A stretch of DNA of 34,546 nt from Luteolibacter sp. (GCA_030828305.1 JAURCU010000016.1:1-34546); one strand, 5' to 3'; shown: positions 4,742-15,294, counted from the stretch's first letter. The notes: a model not told the origin generated them from the letters alone. Made by a program: numbers and translations.

Positions 4742-5527
4742 ATGATGTTCAAATCACCTCGCCCCACCCTCTCCGCAGTCTCCATCGTTCTGATTGCCCT
4801 CGCCCTCACCGCTCCCGACCTCTTGGCACAGGAAGCCAAAGGTGGTCAGGAAAGCCTGCTTCAACGTTGGGTTCTGGCCGGCGGCCAGACCATGATCTTC
4901 ATCGGAGCCGCCGTGGTCGCCTACATCGCGTTGACGGTCTACAACTCCCTGGCTCTCTCCAAGACCAAGTTTAATCCGGAAGACCTCAAGATGACCCTGC
5001 TCGATCACATGGCCAACTGCCGTGTGCGTTCCGCCATCGAACTCGCAGCCACTCATCCGTCCTATCTGGGTCGCTTGGTTGCCTACTCCTTTCCCAACAT
5101 CGACGCCACCCAACCTGAGACTCTCGGTCGTGACATGGTCGAAGATGCGATGGCGGATTTCACCATTAACGAAAACCGCAAAACCATGACCTGGATCAAC
5201 TACATTTCGGTCATCGGTCAGACCGCCCCGATGCTCGGCCTGATGGGTACGGTGATCGGCATGGTCAGCGCCTTTGCCACTCTGAAGACGGCCGGCACCC
5301 CGGACCCCGCCGTTCTTGCCGGTGATATCTCGGTGGCTCTACTCACCACCCTCTGGGGTCTGATCACCGCCGTGCCCTGTATTCTGACCTTCTACATCCT
5401 CAAAAACCGCTTCCAGTCCATGGTTGCCGATTGTGTGCACACCACCGAAGAGCTCCTCAACGCAGCGGTGGCGACCGTCAACGCCGATACTCTCTACGCC
5501 AAGATCCCCGAGGGCATCGCCGAGTGA
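4742..5527 (+). CDS. exbB: MotA/TolQ/ExbB proton channel protein (first system)
   Basis: This 261-residue inner-membrane proton-channel subunit has an N-terminal signal-like segment (about residues 10-28) ending in LLAQ. A first transmembrane helix follows (MIFIGAAVVAYIALTVY), then a cytoplasmic domain. The diagnostic ExbB pair of helices comes last: GQTAPMLGLMGTVIGMV near residues 165-181 and ISVALLTTLWGLITAVP near residues 199-215. ExbB forms a pentamer around an ExbD dimer and uses proton flow to drive periplasmic work. The start could be the ATG at 4742 or 4745 next to the signal peptide, or 4721 upstream. It is followed by two ExbD genes and two exported TPR proteins, all on the same strand. 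No TonB gene is in this cluster. Confidence 0.92.
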   Translation: MMFKSPRPTLSAVSIVLIALALTAPDLLAQEAKGGQESLLQRWVLAGGQTMIFIGAAVVAYIALTVYNSLALSKTKFNPEDLKMTLLDHMANCRVRSAIELAATHPSYLGRLVAYSFPNIDATQPETLGRDMVEDAMADFTINENRKTMTWINYISVIGQTAPMLGLMGTVIGMVSAFATLKTAGTPDPAVLAGDISVALLTTLWGLITAVPCILTFYILKNRFQSMVADCVHTTEELLNAAVATVNADTLYAKIPEGIAE

Positions 5528-5562
5528 GGGATTTGCTGGAAAATTTGCCCCGCGGGTGTAGC

Positions 5563-5679
5563 ATGACCAAACGCATCCTAGAGTATCGCGCCATCCAGCC
5601 ACTCAGCCAATTGGCCTGCCAAATTAGCGTTTATCAGGCCCGCTTGATGGCCTCGCTATTCCCAAGTTCGGAGTCCTAA
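5563..5679 (+). CDS. Possible small ORF between ExbB and ExbD genes
   Basis: A 38-codon ATG-initiated frame fills most of the 172-base gap between the ExbB and first ExbD genes and ends 20 bases before the latter. The product would be slightly basic at the start (MTKRILEYR) with a weakly hydrophobic middle and no recognised motif. There is no ribosome-binding site, but that is true of most genes here. It may be a chance frame in a spacer; I list it because the other spacings in this cluster are short and the gap is otherwise unexplained. Confidence 0.15.
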   Translation: MTKRILEYRAIQPLSQLACQISVYQARLMASLFPSSES

Positions 5680-5699
5680 AAATCAACCTCCACAAAAAC

Positions 5700-6149
5700 A
5701 TGCCCTCCTCGAAACTTCGCCGATCCGCCCCTGGCAGCGAGGACGAATGCAAATTGGACATGTCGCCCATGATCGACATGGTCTTCCTTCTGCTGATCTT
5801 CTTCATTGTGAACGCCACTGCGATCATCGTGAAAACCGACCCGGAGGTGAAGCCGCCCATCGCTAAGAACGCACAGCTTCAGGTGAACAAGGAAGGTCGC
5901 ATCGTGGTCAACGTCCGCAATGACGGCACCTACACGGCTGAGGATTTCACCATTCTTCCCGACGAGGAAGCGATCAAGGACTACGTGAAGAAGGCGCGTG
6001 ACAAGGTGGAAGCCCTCTCGATCACTCCCCGACTCCATCTTCGCGGCGACAAAGAAGCCCTTTTCAAGCATGGCCGCGTCGCGGTGCGTGCCGCTGCCGC
6101 TGCCGGCGTCAACCAGGTGCTCTTCGCCACTTTCATCCGCGAACCTTAA
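5700..6149 (+). CDS. exbD: Biopolymer transport protein ExbD/TolR family (first of a pair)
   Basis: This 149-residue ExbD/TolR protein has a short cytoplasmic N-terminus and one transmembrane helix beginning at the conserved proton-carrying aspartate: D26 in SPMIDMVFLLLIFFIV. A periplasmic domain follows, with the family pattern of small beta strands and a helix (GRIVVNVRNDGTY, then RLHLRGDKEALFKHGR). ExbD dimers sit inside the ExbB pentamer, and the aspartate couples proton flow to rotation. The leader before the ATG is CA-rich (CAACCTCCACAAAAAC) with no Shine-Dalgarno sequence. A second, non-identical ExbD gene starts 21 bases later, so the complex could contain a heterodimer. Confidence 0.92.
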   Translation: MPSSKLRRSAPGSEDECKLDMSPMIDMVFLLLIFFIVNATAIIVKTDPEVKPPIAKNAQLQVNKEGRIVVNVRNDGTYTAEDFTILPDEEAIKDYVKKARDKVEALSITPRLHLRGDKEALFKHGRVAVRAAAAAGVNQVLFATFIREP

Positions 6150-6170
6150 TCTCCATACTCTCCATCACCC

Positions 6171-6635
6171 ATGGCACGCCATAAGAGACAACAACTCGAC
6201 CCCGATGAAGAACCCGCATTGGACATCTCATCGCTGATTGACGTCTGTTTCCTTCTACTGATCTACTTCCTGGTGACCTCCACCATCAAACCCCGCGAAA
6301 GTGACCTGGGCCTCAAGTTGCCCGGCCCCGCTTCCGAAACCACTGATCCTCCTGAGATTGAGCCCATGCTCATTCACATCGAAGGTTCGGGCGCCATCTA
6401 CACTGGTCAGGAGAAGACCCCCATGGACATGGACGGCTCGTCGCGAGAAGTTCCCCTCCTGGATGCCGCTCTCAGGCTCTACAAGGATGGGGTTGATGCT
6501 GCTGGTGAAACGCCATTGGTTCAGATCTACGCCACCGATGAGTCGATGCACCAACGGGTCATCGACGTGCTCAACGCCCTTGCCGGCTTGGGTATCAACT
6601 CTGTGACCTTCACGGACCTTACTTCGGCGGACTAA
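6171..6635 (+). CDS. exbD: Biopolymer transport protein ExbD/TolR family (second of a pair)
   Basis: This 154-residue ExbD/TolR protein has a charged N-terminus (MARHKRQQLDPDEEP), then a transmembrane helix with the conserved aspartate at D24 (SSLIDVCFLLLIYFLVTST). The periplasmic domain includes IHIEGSGAIYTGQEKTPMD and a C-terminal VIDVLNALAGLGINSVTF, matching the family's final helix and strand. It differs clearly from the preceding ExbD at the N-terminus and in the periplasmic loop, so it is a diverged paralogue rather than a recent copy. The leader is again CT-rich (CTCCATACTCTCCATCACCC) without a Shine-Dalgarno. About 230 bases separate it from the large TPR gene; within them lies an imperfect hairpin (GGGCGGC at 6676-6682 with GTCGCCC at 6693-6699) that lacks a T-run. 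Confidence 0.92.
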   Translation: MARHKRQQLDPDEEPALDISSLIDVCFLLLIYFLVTSTIKPRESDLGLKLPGPASETTDPPEIEPMLIHIEGSGAIYTGQEKTPMDMDGSSREVPLLDAALRLYKDGVDAAGETPLVQIYATDESMHQRVIDVLNALAGLGINSVTFTDLTSAD

Positions 6636-6868
6636 ATCCCTCCGAATGCATCAATGGCTTGCAGCCACGAATAGCGGGCGGCGCTTTTCATGGTCGCCCT
6701 CCTCAAATCAGAATCACACTTTATCAACCGGATTGCCCATCAAAAGCATCATCCAATCATCCAGAAATGTCACAATCTCGGGGCTTTTCTGCAATTAAGA
6801 TTGAAGTCACTCAAGCCTGAGTCGCCCTCCCAGACACCTCACCAAAACCGATCCACTCCAGAACGCTC

Positions 6869-9800
6869 ATGAAGACCCGTCCACTTCACATCATGCTTGT
6901 CGCGGCCATTTGCCTGGTGCCCCTCTTAGCTGCCCCCCTTGCCAAAGCCCAGAAAGGCGTTCCCGATTCCCCTGGTGGCCTGCAACTTGGCGAGTTGGTG
7001 ACCCACAGCATCACTCTGATGCAATTTGAGCAGTGGGAGAAAGCCCTCGCTTTCAACCAGCAGGCGATCAAGGACGAGGCCGATGGGGCCCTTGAACAAT
7101 GGGGCCCGCTATTTGGCACCATTTACTATCGCAAAGGCATCTGTGAGATGAAGCTCAAGAAGTATGGCGATGCCGCTGCCTCCTTCGAGAAGTGCTACAA
7201 GGACTTTCCCAACGCCAAGAATGCGATGAACGAGAACGAGTTCGAAAAGCGGGCTCTGTTCCAGTGGGCGAAGGCCGAAATGGCCAAGGAGGAGTGGCAG
7301 AAGGCCATCGATCTTTTCCAGAAATTCCTCAATGAACGCGAGCAAAAGCGCGACTCCTTCTCCTCCGGCGACTTCTTTATCAGCCGCGCCATCTGTTACT
7401 ACAAGCTGCGTCAGGTGGTTCCCGGTAATCAGGACTTCGAGAGCGCGCTGCAAAACAAGCTCGCCTACCGCGTTCCCGATGCTGCTTTGCTCAACTGCTT
7501 CAGAGAGATGGTTGAAGCTGCCATGGAAAAGAAAGATGAACAAGCCATCGTCGACTTTATCAAGAAGAACCGGGGCGGCATCATTACCCAGGACGATGAG
7601 ATGTATCCCTTTAGCGGAATCATCCTCAAGTTAGCCAACGATGCGCTCAAGGCGGAGATGAAGCGTGCCGCCATCATGCTCTATCAACTCATGCCCACTA
7701 CCGAGCTCGCCATTGATCTCGCAAAGGACAAGGCCAAAGGCATTGGTAGTCTGCCCAAGGTGCGCTCCAGAGTCAGCGGAGCCACCTATGAAAAAGAAAT
7801 GCTTGAGAAGCGCGTTTCGCGTCTTCAGCAGGAAATGGACAACGCCAATTCCATTGAGATCGTCCAGCTCATGGCTCTGGCATTCATGCACGAGAAGGAG
7901 GGTAATGTCCGAGGTGCGCATGCCGCCTATCGTCAACTCGAGGATTACTTTCCCCACGCCGAAAAGCGCGAGGATAATCTCTACAACATGGCACGCACAG
8001 CCTTTATGGTGGATGGTGGCTCAAATGCCCTGCCCGATGCCCAGAAATTCCTTGCCGAGTATCCGGAGTCCAAGCACGCCCCTGCCATCAAGCGTCTGAT
8101 GTTTGCCAGCCTGTTTGCCGAGCAACGCTACGAGGAGTGTGTCGAGAGCGCGAGTCAGATGATTGACCAGCTCAAACCCGGCACACCAGATCATGACATC
8201 TGCCTGCACGTGCTGGGCGGCTCCCACTTCTATCTTGGCAACTACGATACGGCCAAGCCGCTGCTTGCGCGCCACATCAACGAGTATCCTGAGAGCGACA
8301 GCAAGGTTGCGGCTGCTTATTTCAATGCGGCTAACTACTACCGCATGAATGACATCGAGAATGCGGCCAAGTGGCTGGATTCTTTCATCCAGACCTACAG
8401 CAACCCTGATGAAAATCCCTTCCTGCCTTTCGCTCTTCTTGACCGCGCCACTGTTCATTACATGAACGAGGAGAATGAGAAGGCCATCGAAGTAGCCACG
8501 CGCCTGATCAAGCAGTTTCCAGACCACAGCGTGGAGGATCAGGCCCTTAACCTCCGCGGTAACGGGCATCTCAGCCTCGAGAACAACAAGGAAGCCATGG
8601 CCGACTATGAGGTGGCTCTCAAGCTTGCCGAGCGCTGGGAGCACGAGGTGGTCGCCGCTGAGGCCTTGTTCTCGATTGCAGATCTCATGGTGGCCGAGGG
8701 CGTCGCGCTCAAGGGCGACGAGGGTAAGGCGCGAATCAAGGAGGCCATGCCTTTCATCCAAAAATTCTGGGACACCTACGGCAGTGATTCCCCGCTTCGC
8801 CGCCAGATGGCGGTGATGCAGATCCCCGTCTACGTCGAGCATGATCGCCTTCCGGATGCGCTTGAGCGCCTGCAGGCAATCGTCGCCGAACTCGCCGCTG
8901 CCGATGACGTGTATGCAATGGAAAAGACCATTCCTCATTACACCGAGGCCTACATGATGGCCCATAGCCCCGAGGAGTTGCGCGATCACTACCGTGCCTT
9001 CAAGGGGGTTTCCCTGGACATGAAGGCTTGCCGCGCCCTGCTCGCTGTCGAGGTGATCCGCATCTTTGAGAAGGTTGCCAAGAAGGCTGAGGAAGGTGAG
9101 CCAAAGATGGCTGCCCAAGCCACGGTAAAAAACCTGTTTGCCGATCTGAAGAACCAGTTCGATCTCAAGGATCTTGCCTCGAGCATTTTGATCAACGTGG
9201 GCGACTATCTGCGCATGAACACCTCTGCCCCGCGTGAGGCCTTGCCTTTCTACACCGAGGTGCTGGAGCGAAAGGACGAGAAGTTCCGTCTTGAGGCTCT
9301 GAGTGGTCGTGGTGCCATTTATGCCCTTTCCCCGCTTCCCAGCGATCTCGATAAGGGTCTTTCCGATTTCAAGGAGGTTATTCAGGGAACCGAGGACAAC
9401 GGTCTGAAGGAGGAGGCTATCTTTAGCATTCTTGAAATTCTGATGACCAAGAAGGATTACGCCGCAGCCGATGCCAAGGCCCGCGAGTTCCTTAAAAAGG
9501 AGAATAACTTCAGCAAGACCCGCAAGGCCAAGGCCATGCTCATGCTTGGTCAGAGTCAGGAGGCCCGTAAGATGGAAGACGACGCCATTGCCTCTTATGG
9601 CCTGATCTGGTCCAACCCCACCTACATGGGTATCATCGAAGCCTCCGCGCCTGCCATCACCAACTGGATGAAAATCCTGTGGATGCGCAACAAGCCCGGC
9701 ACAGACACGGTGATGGGTGACCGCCAAGGGGCATACGAAGGTGGTTGGAAATATCTCCAATTCACCGGACGTTTCCGCGACAAGATGCGCTCAGGCGATC

Positions 9801-9892
9801 TTGAGTTGTGGCTGGAAGTTGAAAAGATCGTCAGGCAGTACGAAGCAAATCCCAATGTAAAGCCCAGGAAAGTTGGTGATGACAAGAAATGA
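6869..9892 (+). CDS. Large exported tetratricopeptide-repeat (TPR) protein
   Basis: This 1007-residue protein has a clear signal peptide (MKTRPLHIMLVAAICLVPLL, cleavage near AKA-Q) followed almost entirely by helical TPR-like repeats. Recognisable units include residues about 38-115 (YYRKGICEMKLKKYGDAAAS), 130-157 (KEEWQKAIDLFQKFL), 336-365, 410-512 (SHFYLGNYDTAKPLL; KWLDSFIQTY) and 520-595 (MNEENEKAIEVATRLIKQFP). Such repeats form a superhelix that binds proteins. There is no enzyme motif. It probably sits in the periplasm, where it could receive force from, or scaffold, the ExbB/ExbD/ExbD complex encoded just upstream; that role is inferred from position. The stop overlaps an ATG that opens the next reading frame. 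A similar TPR gene often follows exbBDD in related bacteria, but I recognise no named family. Confidence 0.87.
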   Translation: MKTRPLHIMLVAAICLVPLLAAPLAKAQKGVPDSPGGLQLGELVTHSITLMQFEQWEKALAFNQQAIKDEADGALEQWGPLFGTIYYRKGICEMKLKKYGDAAASFEKCYKDFPNAKNAMNENEFEKRALFQWAKAEMAKEEWQKAIDLFQKFLNEREQKRDSFSSGDFFISRAICYYKLRQVVPGNQDFESALQNKLAYRVPDAALLNCFREMVEAAMEKKDEQAIVDFIKKNRGGIITQDDEMYPFSGIILKLANDALKAEMKRAAIMLYQLMPTTELAIDLAKDKAKGIGSLPKVRSRVSGATYEKEMLEKRVSRLQQEMDNANSIEIVQLMALAFMHEKEGNVRGAHAAYRQLEDYFPHAEKREDNLYNMARTAFMVDGGSNALPDAQKFLAEYPESKHAPAIKRLMFASLFAEQRYEECVESASQMIDQLKPGTPDHDICLHVLGGSHFYLGNYDTAKPLLARHINEYPESDSKVAAAYFNAANYYRMNDIENAAKWLDSFIQTYSNPDENPFLPFALLDRATVHYMNEENEKAIEVATRLIKQFPDHSVEDQALNLRGNGHLSLENNKEAMADYEVALKLAERWEHEVVAAEALFSIADLMVAEGVALKGDEGKARIKEAMPFIQKFWDTYGSDSPLRRQMAVMQIPVYVEHDRLPDALERLQAIVAELAAADDVYAMEKTIPHYTEAYMMAHSPEELRDHYRAFKGVSLDMKACRALLAVEVIRIFEKVAKKAEEGEPKMAAQATVKNLFADLKNQFDLKDLASSILINVGDYLRMNTSAPREALPFYTEVLERKDEKFRLEALSGRGAIYALSPLPSDLDKGLSDFKEVIQGTEDNGLKEEAIFSILEILMTKKDYAAADAKAREFLKKENNFSKTRKAKAMLMLGQSQEARKMEDDAIASYGLIWSNPTYMGIIEASAPAITNWMKILWMRNKPGTDTVMGDRQGAYEGGWKYLQFTGRFRDKMRSGDLELWLEVEKIVRQYEANPNVKPRKVGDDKK

Positions 9893-9954
9893 ACATCCAT
9901 TCTCATCTGCCTGTTTCCAAACCATCCATTCCAACCGATTTCGAATTTGTCCTC

Positions 9955-10950
9955 ATGAAGACCAAAGTCCTGATTCTCCTGATGCTGTTGGTGGCTACCT
10001 TCAGTCACGCCCAACCCAATCCGCCTGAATTCCCCCGGGCGGTGATCGTCATTATCGAGGACCCGGAGAACAACCGCCTCAAGGCCGAGGAGGTTTACCT
10101 GATGGCGGTAACCCAGACCCAAGTGGCATACAAGTTCAACGCTGCCGATGCCGAGCCAGAGGTGAAGAAGCGCACCGAAATCGATTCCATTTTCCTGTAT
10201 GATCCCAAGGATTATCTGGAGGCCCTCGACCTCTTCGAGGCTCGCAAGTATGCCGAGGCCAAGGATGCATTTGCCGCAGTGTACAAGCGCTATGGCAGGG
10301 CTTATCCCGGCATCCCCAACAATCCGGGTGTCATGGCGGGCTTCTACGAGTTGGAATGCCTGCGCAAGCTCATGGATCTGGAGGGTCTGCGCGTGGCGCT
10401 CCAGAGCTACAAGAAAGATGGCCTGACCAACAAGGTTGCCCTGCAGCAGCTCGAACTCTATGTGCTCTGGGATGCGATTCGTGCCAATCTCAATCAGGAG
10501 GCCATCAAGATTGCCGAAAACTACAAGGGCAAGCGCTTGCCCGGCCATCAACGTGCCCAGGTTGCCTATTGTCATGGCCGTGCTCTTGAGGGCCTTAACA
10601 GGCCCCCACATGAAATTCTTCTCGCCTATCAGACGGCTCTGACTGCTGATGCCGGCAACTCCGAGATCATCGCCCGCGATGCCGCGCTGCGCTCGCTTGC
10701 CATTCTCGACAAGGACCAGGAAATGAAGGATGCCATCAGGACCTTCGATGAGTCCGATGGTCAGGAGATGATCCGTGGTTTCACCAAGGCTATGGAAGCT
10801 GCCGGTTTGTGCCAAATGTTCCAGATTCAACTTGGTGCCGGTGAGCCGTTGCCCGCCAAATACCGCTACTTCCTCAAATACACCCCTGATATCGTTCAGA
10901 AGGCTGCAGAGGGTGGCGGCGGCGAAGAGGAAAAGAAGGACGGCGAGTAA
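9955..10950 (+). CDS. Second exported TPR-like protein of the ExbBDD cluster
   Basis: This 331-residue protein begins with a signal peptide (MKTKVLILLMLLVATFSHAQ). A small beta-rich segment follows (RAVIVIIEDPENNRLKAEEV, with VAYKFN), then helical TPR-like repeats (DYLEALDLFEARKYAEAKDA, AFAAVYKRYG, and a later unit around RAQVAYCHGRALEGLN). The C-terminus is acidic and glycine-rich (EGGGGEEEKKDGE). The frame is open from an ATG at 9889 that overlaps the previous stop as ATGA. I prefer 9955 because it opens straight into the signal peptide; the 22 extra residues would bury it. It is last in the plus-strand run with ExbB, the two ExbD proteins and the large TPR protein, and probably works with them outside the inner membrane. 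No named family is recognised. Confidence 0.8.
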   Translation: MKTKVLILLMLLVATFSHAQPNPPEFPRAVIVIIEDPENNRLKAEEVYLMAVTQTQVAYKFNAADAEPEVKKRTEIDSIFLYDPKDYLEALDLFEARKYAEAKDAFAAVYKRYGRAYPGIPNNPGVMAGFYELECLRKLMDLEGLRVALQSYKKDGLTNKVALQQLELYVLWDAIRANLNQEAIKIAENYKGKRLPGHQRAQVAYCHGRALEGLNRPPHEILLAYQTALTADAGNSEIIARDAALRSLAILDKDQEMKDAIRTFDESDGQEMIRGFTKAMEAAGLCQMFQIQLGAGEPLPAKYRYFLKYTPDIVQKAAEGGGGEEEKKDGE

Positions 10951-11038: not shown

Positions 11039-11707
11039 CTAAGGCCGCTGAAGCCGCTCCGAGAGTGAGTGGAAGACAAGCTGCTTTGTACGGGGCGAGA
11101 TGTAGGCGAAGACATACCGGCGAAAGCGCGGGTCGCAGAGCCATTGCTCCGTGCAGGCAAGCTTCCAGCCCTCGTCTTTTTTCATGCTGACAAGGGCCGG
11201 CACGCTCACCGGATCCTGCCCGCCGGGGCCCTTCAGGAGTCCCGCCTCACCGGGCTTCACGACCAGTGGTTGGCCATCGCCCAACTTGAAGGCCAAGGCC
11301 CGGTTGGTGGCGTTGGCCACGTAGCGGTCTCCACCCCGGATGCGGCCCCCGCCGGTCTTCACCTTTACCACGATGTAGTCTTGCTGTGAGGGGATGAAGA
11401 AGAGGAGTAGATCCTTGAGTTCGTCAGGGGCGATGCGAACTGAGAGCTTCGGCTCCTCGCCGCCCTGCCAGAAATCGAGGAAGCCCCCTTCGCGCAGGCG
11501 CGCCTTGTGGGGGCCTGCGATGTAGGTCAGCGGAACCTCCACTTCGATTTGGTCGCCCTCGGGACCCACGAGATATTCGGGTGAAGGCCGATCCGTGGGA
11601 TCAAAGCGTGCTGCCCGGAATTCCACTTCCGCTCTCTTTTGCTCACCCTGTAGCGTTAGCGGGAGGCTGAGAACCAGGATGCCAAGCATACCCGGGAGAC
11701 GGCTCAT
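11039..11707 (-). CDS. Exported protein of unknown function, coupled to the giant prepilin-like gene
   Basis: I do not recognise a named family. The 222-residue protein starts with a signal peptide (MSRLPGMLGILVLSLPLTLQ, then GEQK). The rest looks beta-rich with little helix: YLVGPEGDQIEVEVPLTYIA, KLSVRIAPDELKDLLLFFIP, RYVANATNRALAFKLGDGQ and LVVKPGEAGLL. Near the end are two cysteines (LACTEQWLCD) that could form a disulfide in the periplasm, then FRRYVFAYISPRTKQLVFHS. The start ATG shares four bases (ATGA) with the stop of the upstream 1177-aa gene, so the two are almost certainly translated together. This suggests a partner or chaperone of the prepilin-like protein; that is inference from position. 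Confidence 0.75.
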   Translation of the reverse strand: MSRLPGMLGILVLSLPLTLQGEQKRAEVEFRAARFDPTDRPSPEYLVGPEGDQIEVEVPLTYIAGPHKARLREGGFLDFWQGGEEPKLSVRIAPDELKDLLLFFIPSQQDYIVVKVKTGGGRIRGGDRYVANATNRALAFKLGDGQPLVVKPGEAGLLKGPGGQDPVSVPALVSMKKDEGWKLACTEQWLCDPRFRRYVFAYISPRTKQLVFHSLSERLQRP

Positions 11708-14700
11708 GCGCTGAGCCCTCCCGCCAGTCTTACTTCTCCCGGAGAAATCCAACGGAAGGTCTTCATCAGCATGCGTCTACCGAAAGTCTTGTTGGTTGGC
11801 GAGGTCAGGTTGTCCCATGCCGTAAAAGCTGCATCTGCGGTGTCCAGATAGTCCGGTGTCCGCTGCACTACCGCCTCGCACCAAGCCTGGGCCGTGACCT
11901 CACTGCCATCGGCAGACCGGGCTTCGCCATACGCCCGGATCACGAAGGTGTCCGAGCGGGCATTCAGGACCGGCGCAATGGTTGTCAGGATGTCCGCCTG
12001 TGAGATATAGGCCGGGGTCCCTTGGAAACGGGAGCCCAGAGCCGCTTCTTGGAACTTGTATTTTGCGCCGCCGATGCCGCCGATGTCAGCGGCAGTGATT
12101 TTCTGTTCCCGGTAGTTGTCGTTGATGCTTACCGCCGGGTCCTCCAGGGCGGCCTGCAGGGCTCCGTAGCGGGCCAATTCGGGATCGGTGGTCAGGCGCC
12201 GGTTCACGAACTCACCCAGCGACCTGAAGGGTCCGCGAATCTTGACCTGCTTGACGATCGCCTCGGCCAGTTCCCGAATCTCCAATTCCGTCAACTCCCG
12301 GTAGCCGAGCCAGCGGTTCTCCTCGGCGCTGGCAGAAGCGTCCGCCGGCCCGCCGAGTGGGGCGCTGAATCGAGACACGACGAAACGGCCCGGCTCTCCC
12401 GCGTCCAGCAGGCCACCGCGACCACCCATGGTTACCTGGCGCTTCAGGTGGGACGAGGCCAGCATGGCGGTCCAGGCCTCTACCGACGTGGAGTTCACAT
12501 TGAAGCCGCCGGTCACTATCAGGTTTGCTGCGACCCGCTCGGCAGCCTCGGCGCGGACCCCTTGGCCAGACCCGACAAGAGCGCGGACAACCGCATCGCT
12601 GTGCGTGCCTGCGAGGTAGGGTCGGTAGGCCGGATTTGGTAGCTGGTCGGTGCCCTCGAAGAATTCACGCGCCACCTGCCCAACGGTCCGCTCTCGGCCG
12701 TAGCTACGGGGAATGATCCCCGATTGTGTAGAGATCGAGGAAAAGAAGTAGTCATCGAAAAGAAGGTGGTTGGCCGCATAGCTACGGTCGATCACCGCCG
12801 CCGGGGACGTCCGGATGCTGTAGTCCGCATTGTTGAACCAAGTCCAGTCGTGGTAGAAATTGCCGGCCAGGTCACCGCCTTGCCACGCGAAGTACTCGCC
12901 CAGATAGAACGGAAAAGACCGCTCCTTGATCTCGTCCGGACGCAGGCCTGGCGAAGCGAAGGAATTGCCGATGGCGTGGTTCTGGAAGTAATAGCCACTC
13001 CAGTTCAGGGCTTCCATCGGGTATTGTGGAAGATTCTGCAGCTGGGCCAGCGAGGTGAGCGGAGCCAGCGGGATGTCCTGCGCAATGATCCGGCTGCGGC
13101 CACCCGGGCGGTTGCTCGGACCAAAGTAGGGCCGGTTCTGAATGACACCTTCCAAGCCGTTGATCTGCTCGAAGGCAACGGTGTAGGGATGAGCGAAGAA
13201 GGTCGTTGCGTTGTCAACCCCCAGCCGTCCGTGTTTCTGGGTGGAGGTTGCTGAAACGTAGGGATGCGCGGGCAGGGTGTGTAGCCACGTCTTGTTGGGG
13301 ACCTGCACCTCATCCAGAGTCTTCAAGCGCACGTCGAGGTGGATGAACGGTTGAGCTGAATTGTCGAGGTCTTGGAGGGTTTGGCTTGGGAAGTTTGTCT
13401 TCGAAATAAAGTCCGCCACCGGGTTGCCCTGATCCAGCTCGCGCCGCCAGCACACCTGGCCACAGAACATCTGGCGCCTGAACCGGTCCGGATGGCCCCG
13501 ATGCGTTGCCTTCGGCTCACAACGAAACCCGAAGGTGGTCTGAAAACGGCCGTAGGAACTCGAGCTGGTGTGCCAACTCGACCCGCTTGTCTCAATCTCG
13601 ATGCGGTCAGTGGGACGGGCGGTGATGGCTCCGAGGTGGCGTTGCTGGCCGAGATGCCCCCGCGGGTTGCTGCGGCCCGGTGGCAACCATGGCTGAACCC
13701 CCTCCACCATGTTGTGGGCGTGGAAACCGCCCGATGAGGAAGTGATGAAGGTCAGGGTCTTGGCCTCTCCGGGCTCGAGGACAATTCCGGGCGTGCCCGC
13801 ATCACCAAATCGCATCACCATATTTCCATGCGGCCATCCCCAATTATATTTACCGTTCCGGCTGCCGCGCCCGGTGACGTTGTGCTTCTGGCCGTTCTTG
13901 TAGATGGTGTGTTCCAGCGGAAGGGTGTGCAGGAAGACGCTCCATTGGTCCACCATGAGTGCAGTGCTGTATGGATTCCACAGGGTCAGCACCGGGTAGC
14001 TGTACATGAAGAGGTCATAATTGAAGTGCCCGTCGTTCGGGCTCGGGCCTTTGTTTGTCACACCGAAGGATAGGATCATCTGCATTCGCGTCATTACCGG
14101 GGCGAGGCGCAGGACGCCGGAATTCCAAGCTGGGTTGGAGACCGGGTCAAAAGCGGAGGTGTAGTTGCGCATCGCATCCATTTGGAAGTAGTTGCCGCTG
14201 CCGATCTGGCGTTTGTGCATGTTCGCCCAGTGATGCAGCGATTTCCACGAGAGCACATCGTATTGTTTGGGCCCGCTCAAGGCGATCTGGCCCCGGGGAC
14301 CCAGGGGACCAAGTGGTTCCCGTTTCTTTCCTTCTGGCCAGCCCCAGCCCTCAAGCCAGTTGATGTCCGTCCGCTCGAGGAAAAGGCTGAGGTCCTTGCG
14401 CAGTGACCCATCGGTCACATTGGCGAGAACGCTTTCGGAGTGAAGGGTGAGGTCATGGAACAGGGCCGGAGATTGCGGCTCGTTTTTCTCCAATAACTCG
14501 ATCAGTTGGCGGCTGATCACCTTGTCGGAGAGTTCGGTGTTCGACGGAAAGTCGGCGAAGTTCGGGATGGCCCGGATCCCATATGCACCAGGTGTGGCCT
14601 GACTTGCCAGCAGGTCTCCCACCACCGCGCGGCCATCGCGGGCCATCTCGTCGCGCATGCCGACGTGGGCCTTGGTGTTTTCATCTGCCACCCACCAGGC

Positions 14701-15237
14701 GTAGGCGCCCTTGTTCGTGCCTACCTTGCCGGCATAGACCACCTGCTGGTCGCTTTCCCCCTTCTTGGCGGGAGACACGACCATCTGCACCGGTTCCTGA
14801 AGTGATCCCGTCCCTGCAAACTCGAGGCGCTCCAATTCTTCCGGGTCGCTGCCAGATACCAGCCAGCGCTCGAAGGGTTCGGCGCGGTTATAGCTGGGTT
14901 TTGTCCCCAGGGCCTCGGAGCGCGCGGTCCACACTCCTGTCAAAAATTGATGCGCCACCCCCTCGAGTTCTGAAGTCTCCGGATCCGTATCGAGGATCGC
15001 CGCTGGCGCGGTCACTTTCCCGTCCGGACCCATCGATCGCTGCAGCTCTCCGATGGCCAGCATCAACGCCATCCTCGCGTTTGCCCTGGCCTCGGCCTCC
15101 GCATTTTGCAGGCTCCGTGTCTTTATTGTTGCTGTCGATAATGTCAGCATCGCCAGCGCAAGCAACACAGTGATCGCCAGGATTGAAATCGTGGCGACGA
15201 GTGCAAAGCCTTGTCTGCTGGGAATGTTCTTTTTCAC
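11704..15237 (-). CDS. Giant prepilin-like protein (Verru_Chthon cassette protein A-like)
   Basis: This 1177-residue protein begins with a basic leader and a type IV prepilin-like segment: SRQGFALVATISILAITVLL, with a likely processing point between G and F. The mature helix lacks the glutamate at position 5 normal for major pilins, as in GspK/PilX-like minor subunits. After the helix comes ARANARMALMLAIGELQRSM, a strong match to my memory of the verrucomicrobial 'cassette protein A' group. The large central region has no motif I know. The C-terminal part (SQADILTTIAPVLNARSDTF, then VIRAYGEARSADG) resembles GspK-type minor pseudopilins. The frame reaches a TTG at 15288; I chose the GTG at 15237 (VKKNIPSRQGF) because it gives a normal short leader and leaves an inverted repeat upstream. 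Cassette partners B, C and D are not in the window. Confidence 0.82.
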   Translation of the reverse strand: MKKNIPSRQGFALVATISILAITVLLALAMLTLSTATIKTRSLQNAEAEARANARMALMLAIGELQRSMGPDGKVTAPAAILDTDPETSELEGVAHQFLTGVWTARSEALGTKPSYNRAEPFERWLVSGSDPEELERLEFAGTGSLQEPVQMVVSPAKKGESDQQVVYAGKVGTNKGAYAWWVADENTKAHVGMRDEMARDGRAVVGDLLASQATPGAYGIRAIPNFADFPSNTELSDKVISRQLIELLEKNEPQSPALFHDLTLHSESVLANVTDGSLRKDLSLFLERTDINWLEGWGWPEGKKREPLGPLGPRGQIALSGPKQYDVLSWKSLHHWANMHKRQIGSGNYFQMDAMRNYTSAFDPVSNPAWNSGVLRLAPVMTRMQMILSFGVTNKGPSPNDGHFNYDLFMYSYPVLTLWNPYSTALMVDQWSVFLHTLPLEHTIYKNGQKHNVTGRGSRNGKYNWGWPHGNMVMRFGDAGTPGIVLEPGEAKTLTFITSSSGGFHAHNMVEGVQPWLPPGRSNPRGHLGQQRHLGAITARPTDRIEIETSGSSWHTSSSSYGRFQTTFGFRCEPKATHRGHPDRFRRQMFCGQVCWRRELDQGNPVADFISKTNFPSQTLQDLDNSAQPFIHLDVRLKTLDEVQVPNKTWLHTLPAHPYVSATSTQKHGRLGVDNATTFFAHPYTVAFEQINGLEGVIQNRPYFGPSNRPGGRSRIIAQDIPLAPLTSLAQLQNLPQYPMEALNWSGYYFQNHAIGNSFASPGLRPDEIKERSFPFYLGEYFAWQGGDLAGNFYHDWTWFNNADYSIRTSPAAVIDRSYAANHLLFDDYFFSSISTQSGIIPRSYGRERTVGQVAREFFEGTDQLPNPAYRPYLAGTHSDAVVRALVGSGQGVRAEAAERVAANLIVTGGFNVNSTSVEAWTAMLASSHLKRQVTMGGRGGLLDAGEPGRFVVSRFSAPLGGPADASASAEENRWLGYRELTELEIRELAEAIVKQVKIRGPFRSLGEFVNRRLTTDPELARYGALQAALEDPAVSINDNYREQKITAADIGGIGGAKYKFQEAALGSRFQGTPAYISQADILTTIAPVLNARSDTFVIRAYGEARSADGSEVTAQAWCEAVVQRTPDYLDTADAAFTAWDNLTSPTNKTFGRRMLMKTFRWISPGEVRLAGGLSA

Positions 15238-15272
15238 CCTAGTGGTGTTAGAAATTTTCTCTTTTAAATTCC

Positions 15273-15294
15273 ATGTAGATTCTAACAACTACAT
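15273..15294. promoter_or_regulatory. Inverted repeat before the giant prepilin-like gene
   Basis: ATGTAG and CTACAT face each other across a 10-base centre, 35 bases upstream of the preferred GTG start. The spot suits an operator or a small leader hairpin. If the alternative TTG start at 15288 were used, translation would begin inside this repeat, which argues weakly for the GTG. Confidence 0.3.

Follow-up and report, generated by a model that had tools for sequence, protein, structure and literature searches.

Predicted Orthologue of the Akkermansia muciniphila Mucin Utilization Locus MUL1, with an ExbB-ExbD-ExbD Motor, in a Luteolibacter-like Bacterium

Introduction

MUL genes of Akkermansia muciniphila are needed for mucin uptake and have been linked to outer-membrane mucin transport (PMC12928651; PMC12418764). 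The name Mul1B refers to mucin utilization locus 1 (MUL1) of this bacterium (NCBIfam NF052542). It has been reported that MUL1 synteny is absent from aquatic Akkermansiaceae, and the locus was hence regarded as an adaptation specific to the gut and to mucin; fucoidan was found to accumulate inside the cells of aquatic Akkermansiaceae (PMC13174399, 2026). In PVC bacteria, TPR genes have been described in clusters with a tolQ-like gene, two tolR-like genes and a gene for a vWA transducer, the function of these clusters being given as unknown (PMC12204202, 2025).

In this study, we analysed a five-gene locus of Luteolibacter sp. that an initial annotation had described as an ExbB-ExbD-ExbD cluster with two exported TPR proteins and no TonB. 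The window, i.e., the whole stretch of DNA analysed (34,546 nucleotides), is contig C75 of a draft verrucomicrobial genome of 2.39 Mb. Judged from its predicted genes and proteins, the locus is orthologous to A. muciniphila MUL1 and represents it in an environmental, Luteolibacter-like bacterium; we regard this assignment as solid.

Results and Discussion

The Five-Gene Locus and Its Motor Subunits

Open reading frames and Pfam matches confirmed that an ExbB, two different ExbDs and two exported proteins are encoded in one strand-consistent run (Table 1). The ExbB frame can be opened from 4721, and the alignment of its relatives begins at about 4742. The mul1B gene probably starts at 9955 rather than at 9889, because the NF052542 profile match begins there (MKTKVLILLMLLVATFSHAQ). 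By eye, signal-peptide-like N-termini were observed in the ExbB, in the TPR protein and, if the start is at 9955, in the last protein. A promoter scan of the sequence found none, and terminator-like sites occurred at near chance frequency. On the opposite strand of the window, a very long pilin-like protein (11704-15288) matches the Verru_Chthon cassette protein A model weakly (E 0.0016, far under the cut-off); its 237-aa partner (11039-11752) belongs to no family.

Table 1. Predicted genes of the MUL1-type locus, with positions in the window.
Predicted product	Position	Strand	Evidence
ExbB/TolQ-family proton-channel subunit, MUL1 type	4742..5527	+	PF01618 E 2.1e-24; signal-peptide-like N-terminus
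ExbD1, ExbD/TolR-family subunit	5700..6149	+	PF02472 E 3.6e-16; conserved TM Asp MSPMIDMVFLLLIFF
ExbD2, second, different ExbD/TolR-family subunit	6171..6635	+	PF02472 E 4.6e-17; TM Asp ISSLIDVCFLLLIYF
Exported TPR superhelix, 1007 aa	6869..9892	+	TPR_2 E 1.7e-15 (Pfam)
Mul1B-family exported protein, 331 aa	9955..10950 (ORF open from 9889)	+	NF052542 E 7.8e-58

The transmembrane Asp motif was present in 82 of 84 homologues of ExbD1 and in all 83 of ExbD2, and a GT motif in 81/81 ExbB homologues; two threonine columns of the ExbB pore were invariant (alignment A9). The MotA/TolQ/ExbB 5:2 motor superfamily is recognized by two such features, the Asp of the ExbD helix and the threonines of the ExbB pore; both are conserved here, so the motor chemistry follows from the family. 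The motor lies far below the cut-offs of the NCBIfam equivalogs, with scores of 59 bits (cut-off 221) for tolQ and 52 (206) for exbB, and with 39 and 35 (127) for tolR. Against a profile of the cluster ExbBs (A9), the window ExbB scored 360 bits vs 146 for the next ExbB listed from the same genome. ExbB proteins are also matched by NF007722, which is titled acyl-CoA thioesterase, probably a naming error in the NCBIfam library.

The TPR Protein and Mul1B

Both exported proteins had been taken for TPR proteins. This holds for the longer one; the second is a member of NF052542, "Mul1B family putative transporter subunit" (196 bits, cut-off 75), which had no Pfam match, TPR included, and is TPR-like only at the level of its AlphaFold2 fold. 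The Mul1B model (pLDDT 90.8) consists of a small N-terminal beta domain and TPR-like helix pairs, and against PDB structures it gave no match with E < 0.001, only generic TPR proteins being found. The model of the TPR protein (pLDDT 90.7, pTM 0.61) is made of helix pairs nearly throughout. Its structural matches were mostly long eukaryotic TPR proteins. In the structural comparisons VIA-align Z values went up to 12.5, within the range that the tool's own note deems unspecific for helical repeats. Alignments A1 and A5 revealed end-to-end homology with the 1101-aa TPR protein encoded beside mul1B in Akkermansia. About 25% of the residues are identical across some 1000 aa, and many columns of A1 are invariant between the window and Akkermansia proteins. 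The Akkermansia protein is probably Mul1A.

Distribution of the Locus

The NF052542 cut-off was passed by 28 of 288 Verrucomicrobiota genomes, all 28 in the window's family (f1). In the Akkermansia chromosome G113 (2.66 Mb) the genes for ExbB, ExbD, ExbD, the 1101-aa TPR protein and Mul1B are preceded by one for endonuclease III, a homologue of which was also identified at L058. At the Akkermansia loci compared with the window (L044, L139-L143) the order of the motor genes upstream of the TPR gene equals that of the window. Among named aquatic bacteria, the same five-gene order was observed in Luteolibacter, Haloferula and Roseibacillus; as in Akkermansia, an endonuclease III gene often precedes it.

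The proposal of the initial annotation had been made to depend on a gene order conserved beyond this strain, and such conservation was found. A scan of the TPR alignment against 84,980 species genomes gave 66 named loci. By their record titles these include Luteolibacter marinus, Haloferula rosea, Roseibacillus persicicus and Prosthecobacter, along with many Akkermansia or Akkermansiaceae MAGs. ExbB-ExbD-ExbD lies 5' of the TPR gene in 57 of the 66, with endonuclease III upstream in 32 of these 57, and Mul1B follows the TPR gene in the 57 wherever the contig reaches far enough. Six of the other nine loci are cut by the contig start, and three have no motor despite room on the contig. Since this order is kept in dozens of genomes, the locus is not a chance arrangement. 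Extra TPR/Mul1B copies or fragments adjoin the main locus at L110:7440-9119 and in genomes G294 and G344, which suggests tandem duplication.

If MUL1 in the 2026 study (PMC13174399) means this locus, our result conflicts with it at the level of distant homology; the low identity (about 20-25%) may be why aquatic MUL1 went unnoticed there. Akkermansiaceae of the gut and of water alike carry the unit almost universally, and it is no gut specialty.

A Related Cluster Outside the Family

Weakly Mul1B-like proteins outside the family likewise adjoin ExbB-ExbD-ExbD. A profile built from six of them (A4) matched in 209 of 288 Verrucomicrobiota genomes at E 1e-3, where weak matches may be generic TPR. 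We examined 49 loci, nine seen first and 40 picked from the stronger matches (G268 among them is in-family). Genes for a Mul1B-like protein, ExbB, ExbD and ExbD stand in line at 47 of the 49, and a long TPR gene precedes nearly all. Directly 3' of the out-of-family clusters a protein with a single transmembrane helix is usually encoded. This helix often contains a histidine (e.g., GPVGSVIFHVIIVGMLL), and a charged/proline linker joins it to an end that forms an alpha/alpha toroid; the end contains a squalene-hopene-cyclase C domain in 21 of 27. Proteins at this transducer position have other C-terminal ends at L067:4474-5661, L181:10643-12115 and L183:4675-6210 (by eye one PA14-like, two vWA-like), as if the end domain were exchangeable. 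In the TPR-motor clusters L072, L186, L196, L213, L214 and L250, three ExbD genes rather than two stand in a row.

Comparison of in-family and out-of-family profiles by hhalign gave a probability of 98.4 (E 5e-15) for Mul1B and of 100 for the TPR protein, both inflated by shared TPR character. The ExbB tree is the cleaner test of common origin. In it, 33 cluster ExbBs formed a single clade (98/92) apart from 24 other ExbBs. These 24 were paralogues from the window's genome and five others; fragments and duplicates were left out, including both ExbBs beside tonB on contig C137. The cluster clade lay apart from the Tol-like ExbBs tested, and the MUL1 ExbB of the window from the ExbB at 33 kb; the motor is thus distinct from the genome's other ExbB types in the tree. 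On these data the MUL1 motor descends from a cluster type found across the phylum Verrucomicrobiota. That PVC cluster had been noticed earlier without a function, and the link to Mul1B supplies one to test.

One Motor Type per Genome

We typed 97 Akkermansiaceae genomes with the cluster-ExbB profile, tallying by hand from tables. The MUL1 type was assigned to 76, of which 74 scored at least 284 bits and two divergent ones (G290, G299) were placed by gene order. Another 15 carried the other type, with 237-277 bits and with a TPR or toroid gene in the position that it has in the out-of-family clusters. No genome had both, and six, several of them fragmentary, had neither. This mutual exclusion is significant (Fisher p 3.5e-13) when the relatedness of the genomes is ignored. 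Both states occur within three genera, with MUL1-type and other-type genomes numbering 3 and 8 in the window's own genus (g1), 5 and 5 in g3, and 7 and 2 in g5. The absence of any genome with both among the 97 suggests that the two motors are interchangeable, as would be expected were each able to replace the other.

The MUL1-type TPR gene persists, whole or partial, in 12 of the 15 other-type genomes; in G314 and G336 it adjoins the other-type cluster. In G243, G320, G334 and G215, which have the other motor type, the gene is short or broken into parts and may thus be decaying. A 99%-complete genome of the window's family, G030 (Akkermansia-like genus g2), gave no match for either motor type or for Mul1B, which reflects either loss or an assembly gap.

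One type or the other is present in 91 of the 97 genomes, and this near-universal presence would also fit a housekeeping role. The locus could then encode a Tol-like motor with a CpoB-like TPR protein for envelope maintenance, which would tether or constrict the outer membrane, the glycan-uptake phenotypes of Akkermansia being secondary. The best sub-matches of the TPR protein were indeed models of YbgF/CpoB and BamD; however, TPR models match each other generically. Moreover, the locus contains no Pal, TolB or TolA, its ExbB stands apart from the paralogues in the tree, that at 33 kb among them, and the MUL phenotype reported is mucin transport (PMC12928651). We consider this role unlikely.

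TonB and the Question of a Transducer

The absence of TonB held within the run, as no TonB or TolA gene was found at 4742-10950, but not beyond it. At the contig end (31940-34321) the window encodes another ExbB-ExbD pair together with a proline-rich protein, which has one TM helix and the topology of TolA/TonB and had no Pfam match. The genome's one TonB_C protein is encoded on contig C137 beside two ExbBs, with two TonB-dependent receptor plugs on the same contig and three in the genome in total. With this TonB and three plugs, the MUL1 motor might be an ordinary extra ExbBD energiser for TonB and its receptors, the TPR proteins being accessory. Yet TonB has its own adjoining ExbBs, two of the plugs share their contig, and the MUL1 ExbB groups with the ExbBs of TPR clusters and not with the paralogues tested (the C137 ExbBs beside tonB stand outside the tree). 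An energiser of this kind seems to us quite improbable.

Next to the motor, no transducer of TonB topology was found in the window run or in those MUL1-type loci of Akkermansiaceae that were read completely. Away from the motor genes, contig C181 of the window's genome (L237:9718-11190) encodes a lone 491-aa single-TM protein with an alpha/alpha-toroid end. Such lone toroid proteins occur in most Akkermansiaceae (also L240, L245 and relatives), with a tandem pair in G113 near 1.345 Mb. They were not detected in the genomes G005, G051, G193, G286 and G137 of the genus Akkermansia, which carry the MUL1 motor. The lone toroid protein is ruled out as an obligatory transducer, several MUL1-motor genomes being without it.

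The TPR superhelix may substitute for TonB, as had been suggested. However, a TonB-topology protein is encoded downstream of such clusters in other families and elsewhere in the genome in most Akkermansiaceae. A transducer acting in trans is hence conceivable; it is possible in some genomes and seems not to be required everywhere. More tentatively, and with some doubt, we suggest that a class of proton-driven motor, as a rule present once in a genome, may be common to Verrucomicrobiota and be dedicated to macromolecule uptake by a periplasmic TPR/Mul1B complex, and that in the MUL1 form the ExbD1/ExbD2 pair may move the TPR scaffold directly, without a transducer of the TonB/TolA type. If this is true, the Akkermansia-genus genomes with the motor and no detected toroid transducer would be the cleanest examples of direct coupling.

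Proposed Mechanism and Function

It is reasonably probable, in our judgement, that this orthologue of MUL1 is a proton-driven ExbB-ExbD1-ExbD2 motor that works a periplasmic TPR/Mul1B complex for the uptake of large glycans. ExbB would form a pentameric proton channel, and the axle in its pore would probably be a mixed pair of one ExbD1 and one ExbD2. Proton flow would move the periplasmic domains of the ExbDs, and these would act on the complex of the TPR superhelix of about 1000 aa with Mul1B. The complex could then pull large, partly digested glycans through the outer membrane, to be digested in a "selfish" manner in the periplasm. The substrate would be mucin in the gut and, in Luteolibacter, probably a fucose-rich or sulfated polymer.

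The conserved linkage and the one-motor pattern argue that the motor serves the TPR/Mul1B complex. Among the roles offered in the initial annotation we favour polymer uptake, given the orthology with Akkermansia MUL1 and the tie of that locus to outer-membrane mucin transport; envelope growth and surface movement are less favoured. The intracellular fucoidan of aquatic Akkermansiaceae supports a reading as glycan uptake. The five-gene locus contains no gene for an outer-membrane channel, which counts against this explanation. Unlike the solid identity of the locus, its function and coupling are what we infer, and so are the mixed ExbD pair, the direct action on TPR/Mul1B and the glycan substrate in this organism. 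With a proton motor placed beside the mucin-uptake proteins of Akkermansia, selfish polysaccharide uptake by Verrucomicrobia becomes testable.

Comparison with Known Systems

The locus shares its motor family and conserved pore residues with ExbBD-TonB and TolQRA. It differs from them in that the unit has no TonB or TolA and its ExbB and ExbDs fall far under the equivalog cut-offs.

As in the flagellar periplasmic scaffold of Campylobacter (PDB 9hmf), a periplasmic helical-repeat scaffold would stand beside a proton-driven motor. Chain K of 9hmf was among the Foldseek matches of the TPR and Mul1B models, with TM-scores of 0.19-0.37, as one of many TPR matches, and the likeness is by analogy only.

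The AglRQS-Glt gliding motor of Myxococcus, with one ExbB/TolQ-like subunit, two ExbD/TolR-like subunits and exported TPR partners (PMC3169522), resembles the locus in composition. It is a precedent for the pairing of one TolQ-like subunit with two TolR-like ones. It also raises the question of surface movement or secretion, in which an AglRQS/Glt-like or type IX-like machine would have the motor drag a periplasmic scaffold along the cell. However, the outer-membrane and adhesin parts of Glt are missing from the MUL1 locus, whose conserved five-gene unit has no gene for an adhesin, an outer-membrane barrel or a GltG-like protein, and A. muciniphila, which carries the locus, has been described as non-motile (PMC12418764). 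This seems the least probable of the alternatives.

The PVC cluster (PMC12204202), which occurs in Verrucomicrobia among others, likewise combines a TPR gene with genes for one TolQ-like and two different TolR-like proteins. The MUL1 type differs in its permuted order, in the mul1B gene that comes after the TPR gene and in having no adjacent transducer. The transducer of the published clusters is of the vWA kind, while that of our out-of-family clusters mostly ends in an alpha/alpha toroid.

The closest system is Akkermansia MUL1. Window and Akkermansia loci have a Mul1B over the cut-off, the same order of five genes and orthologous ExbBs in one clade, and endonuclease III lies upstream in Akkermansia and many aquatic relatives. 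The window differs in having no endonuclease III upstream, in an identity of about 20-25% for Mul1B and the TPR protein, and in the habitat of the organism, hence probably in substrate. MUL1 is an already known kind of locus, and what is new is its context: its family-wide occurrence in gut and water, its descent from a phylum-wide motor cluster, the mutual exclusion of the two in the genomes sampled, and a functional lead for that cluster.
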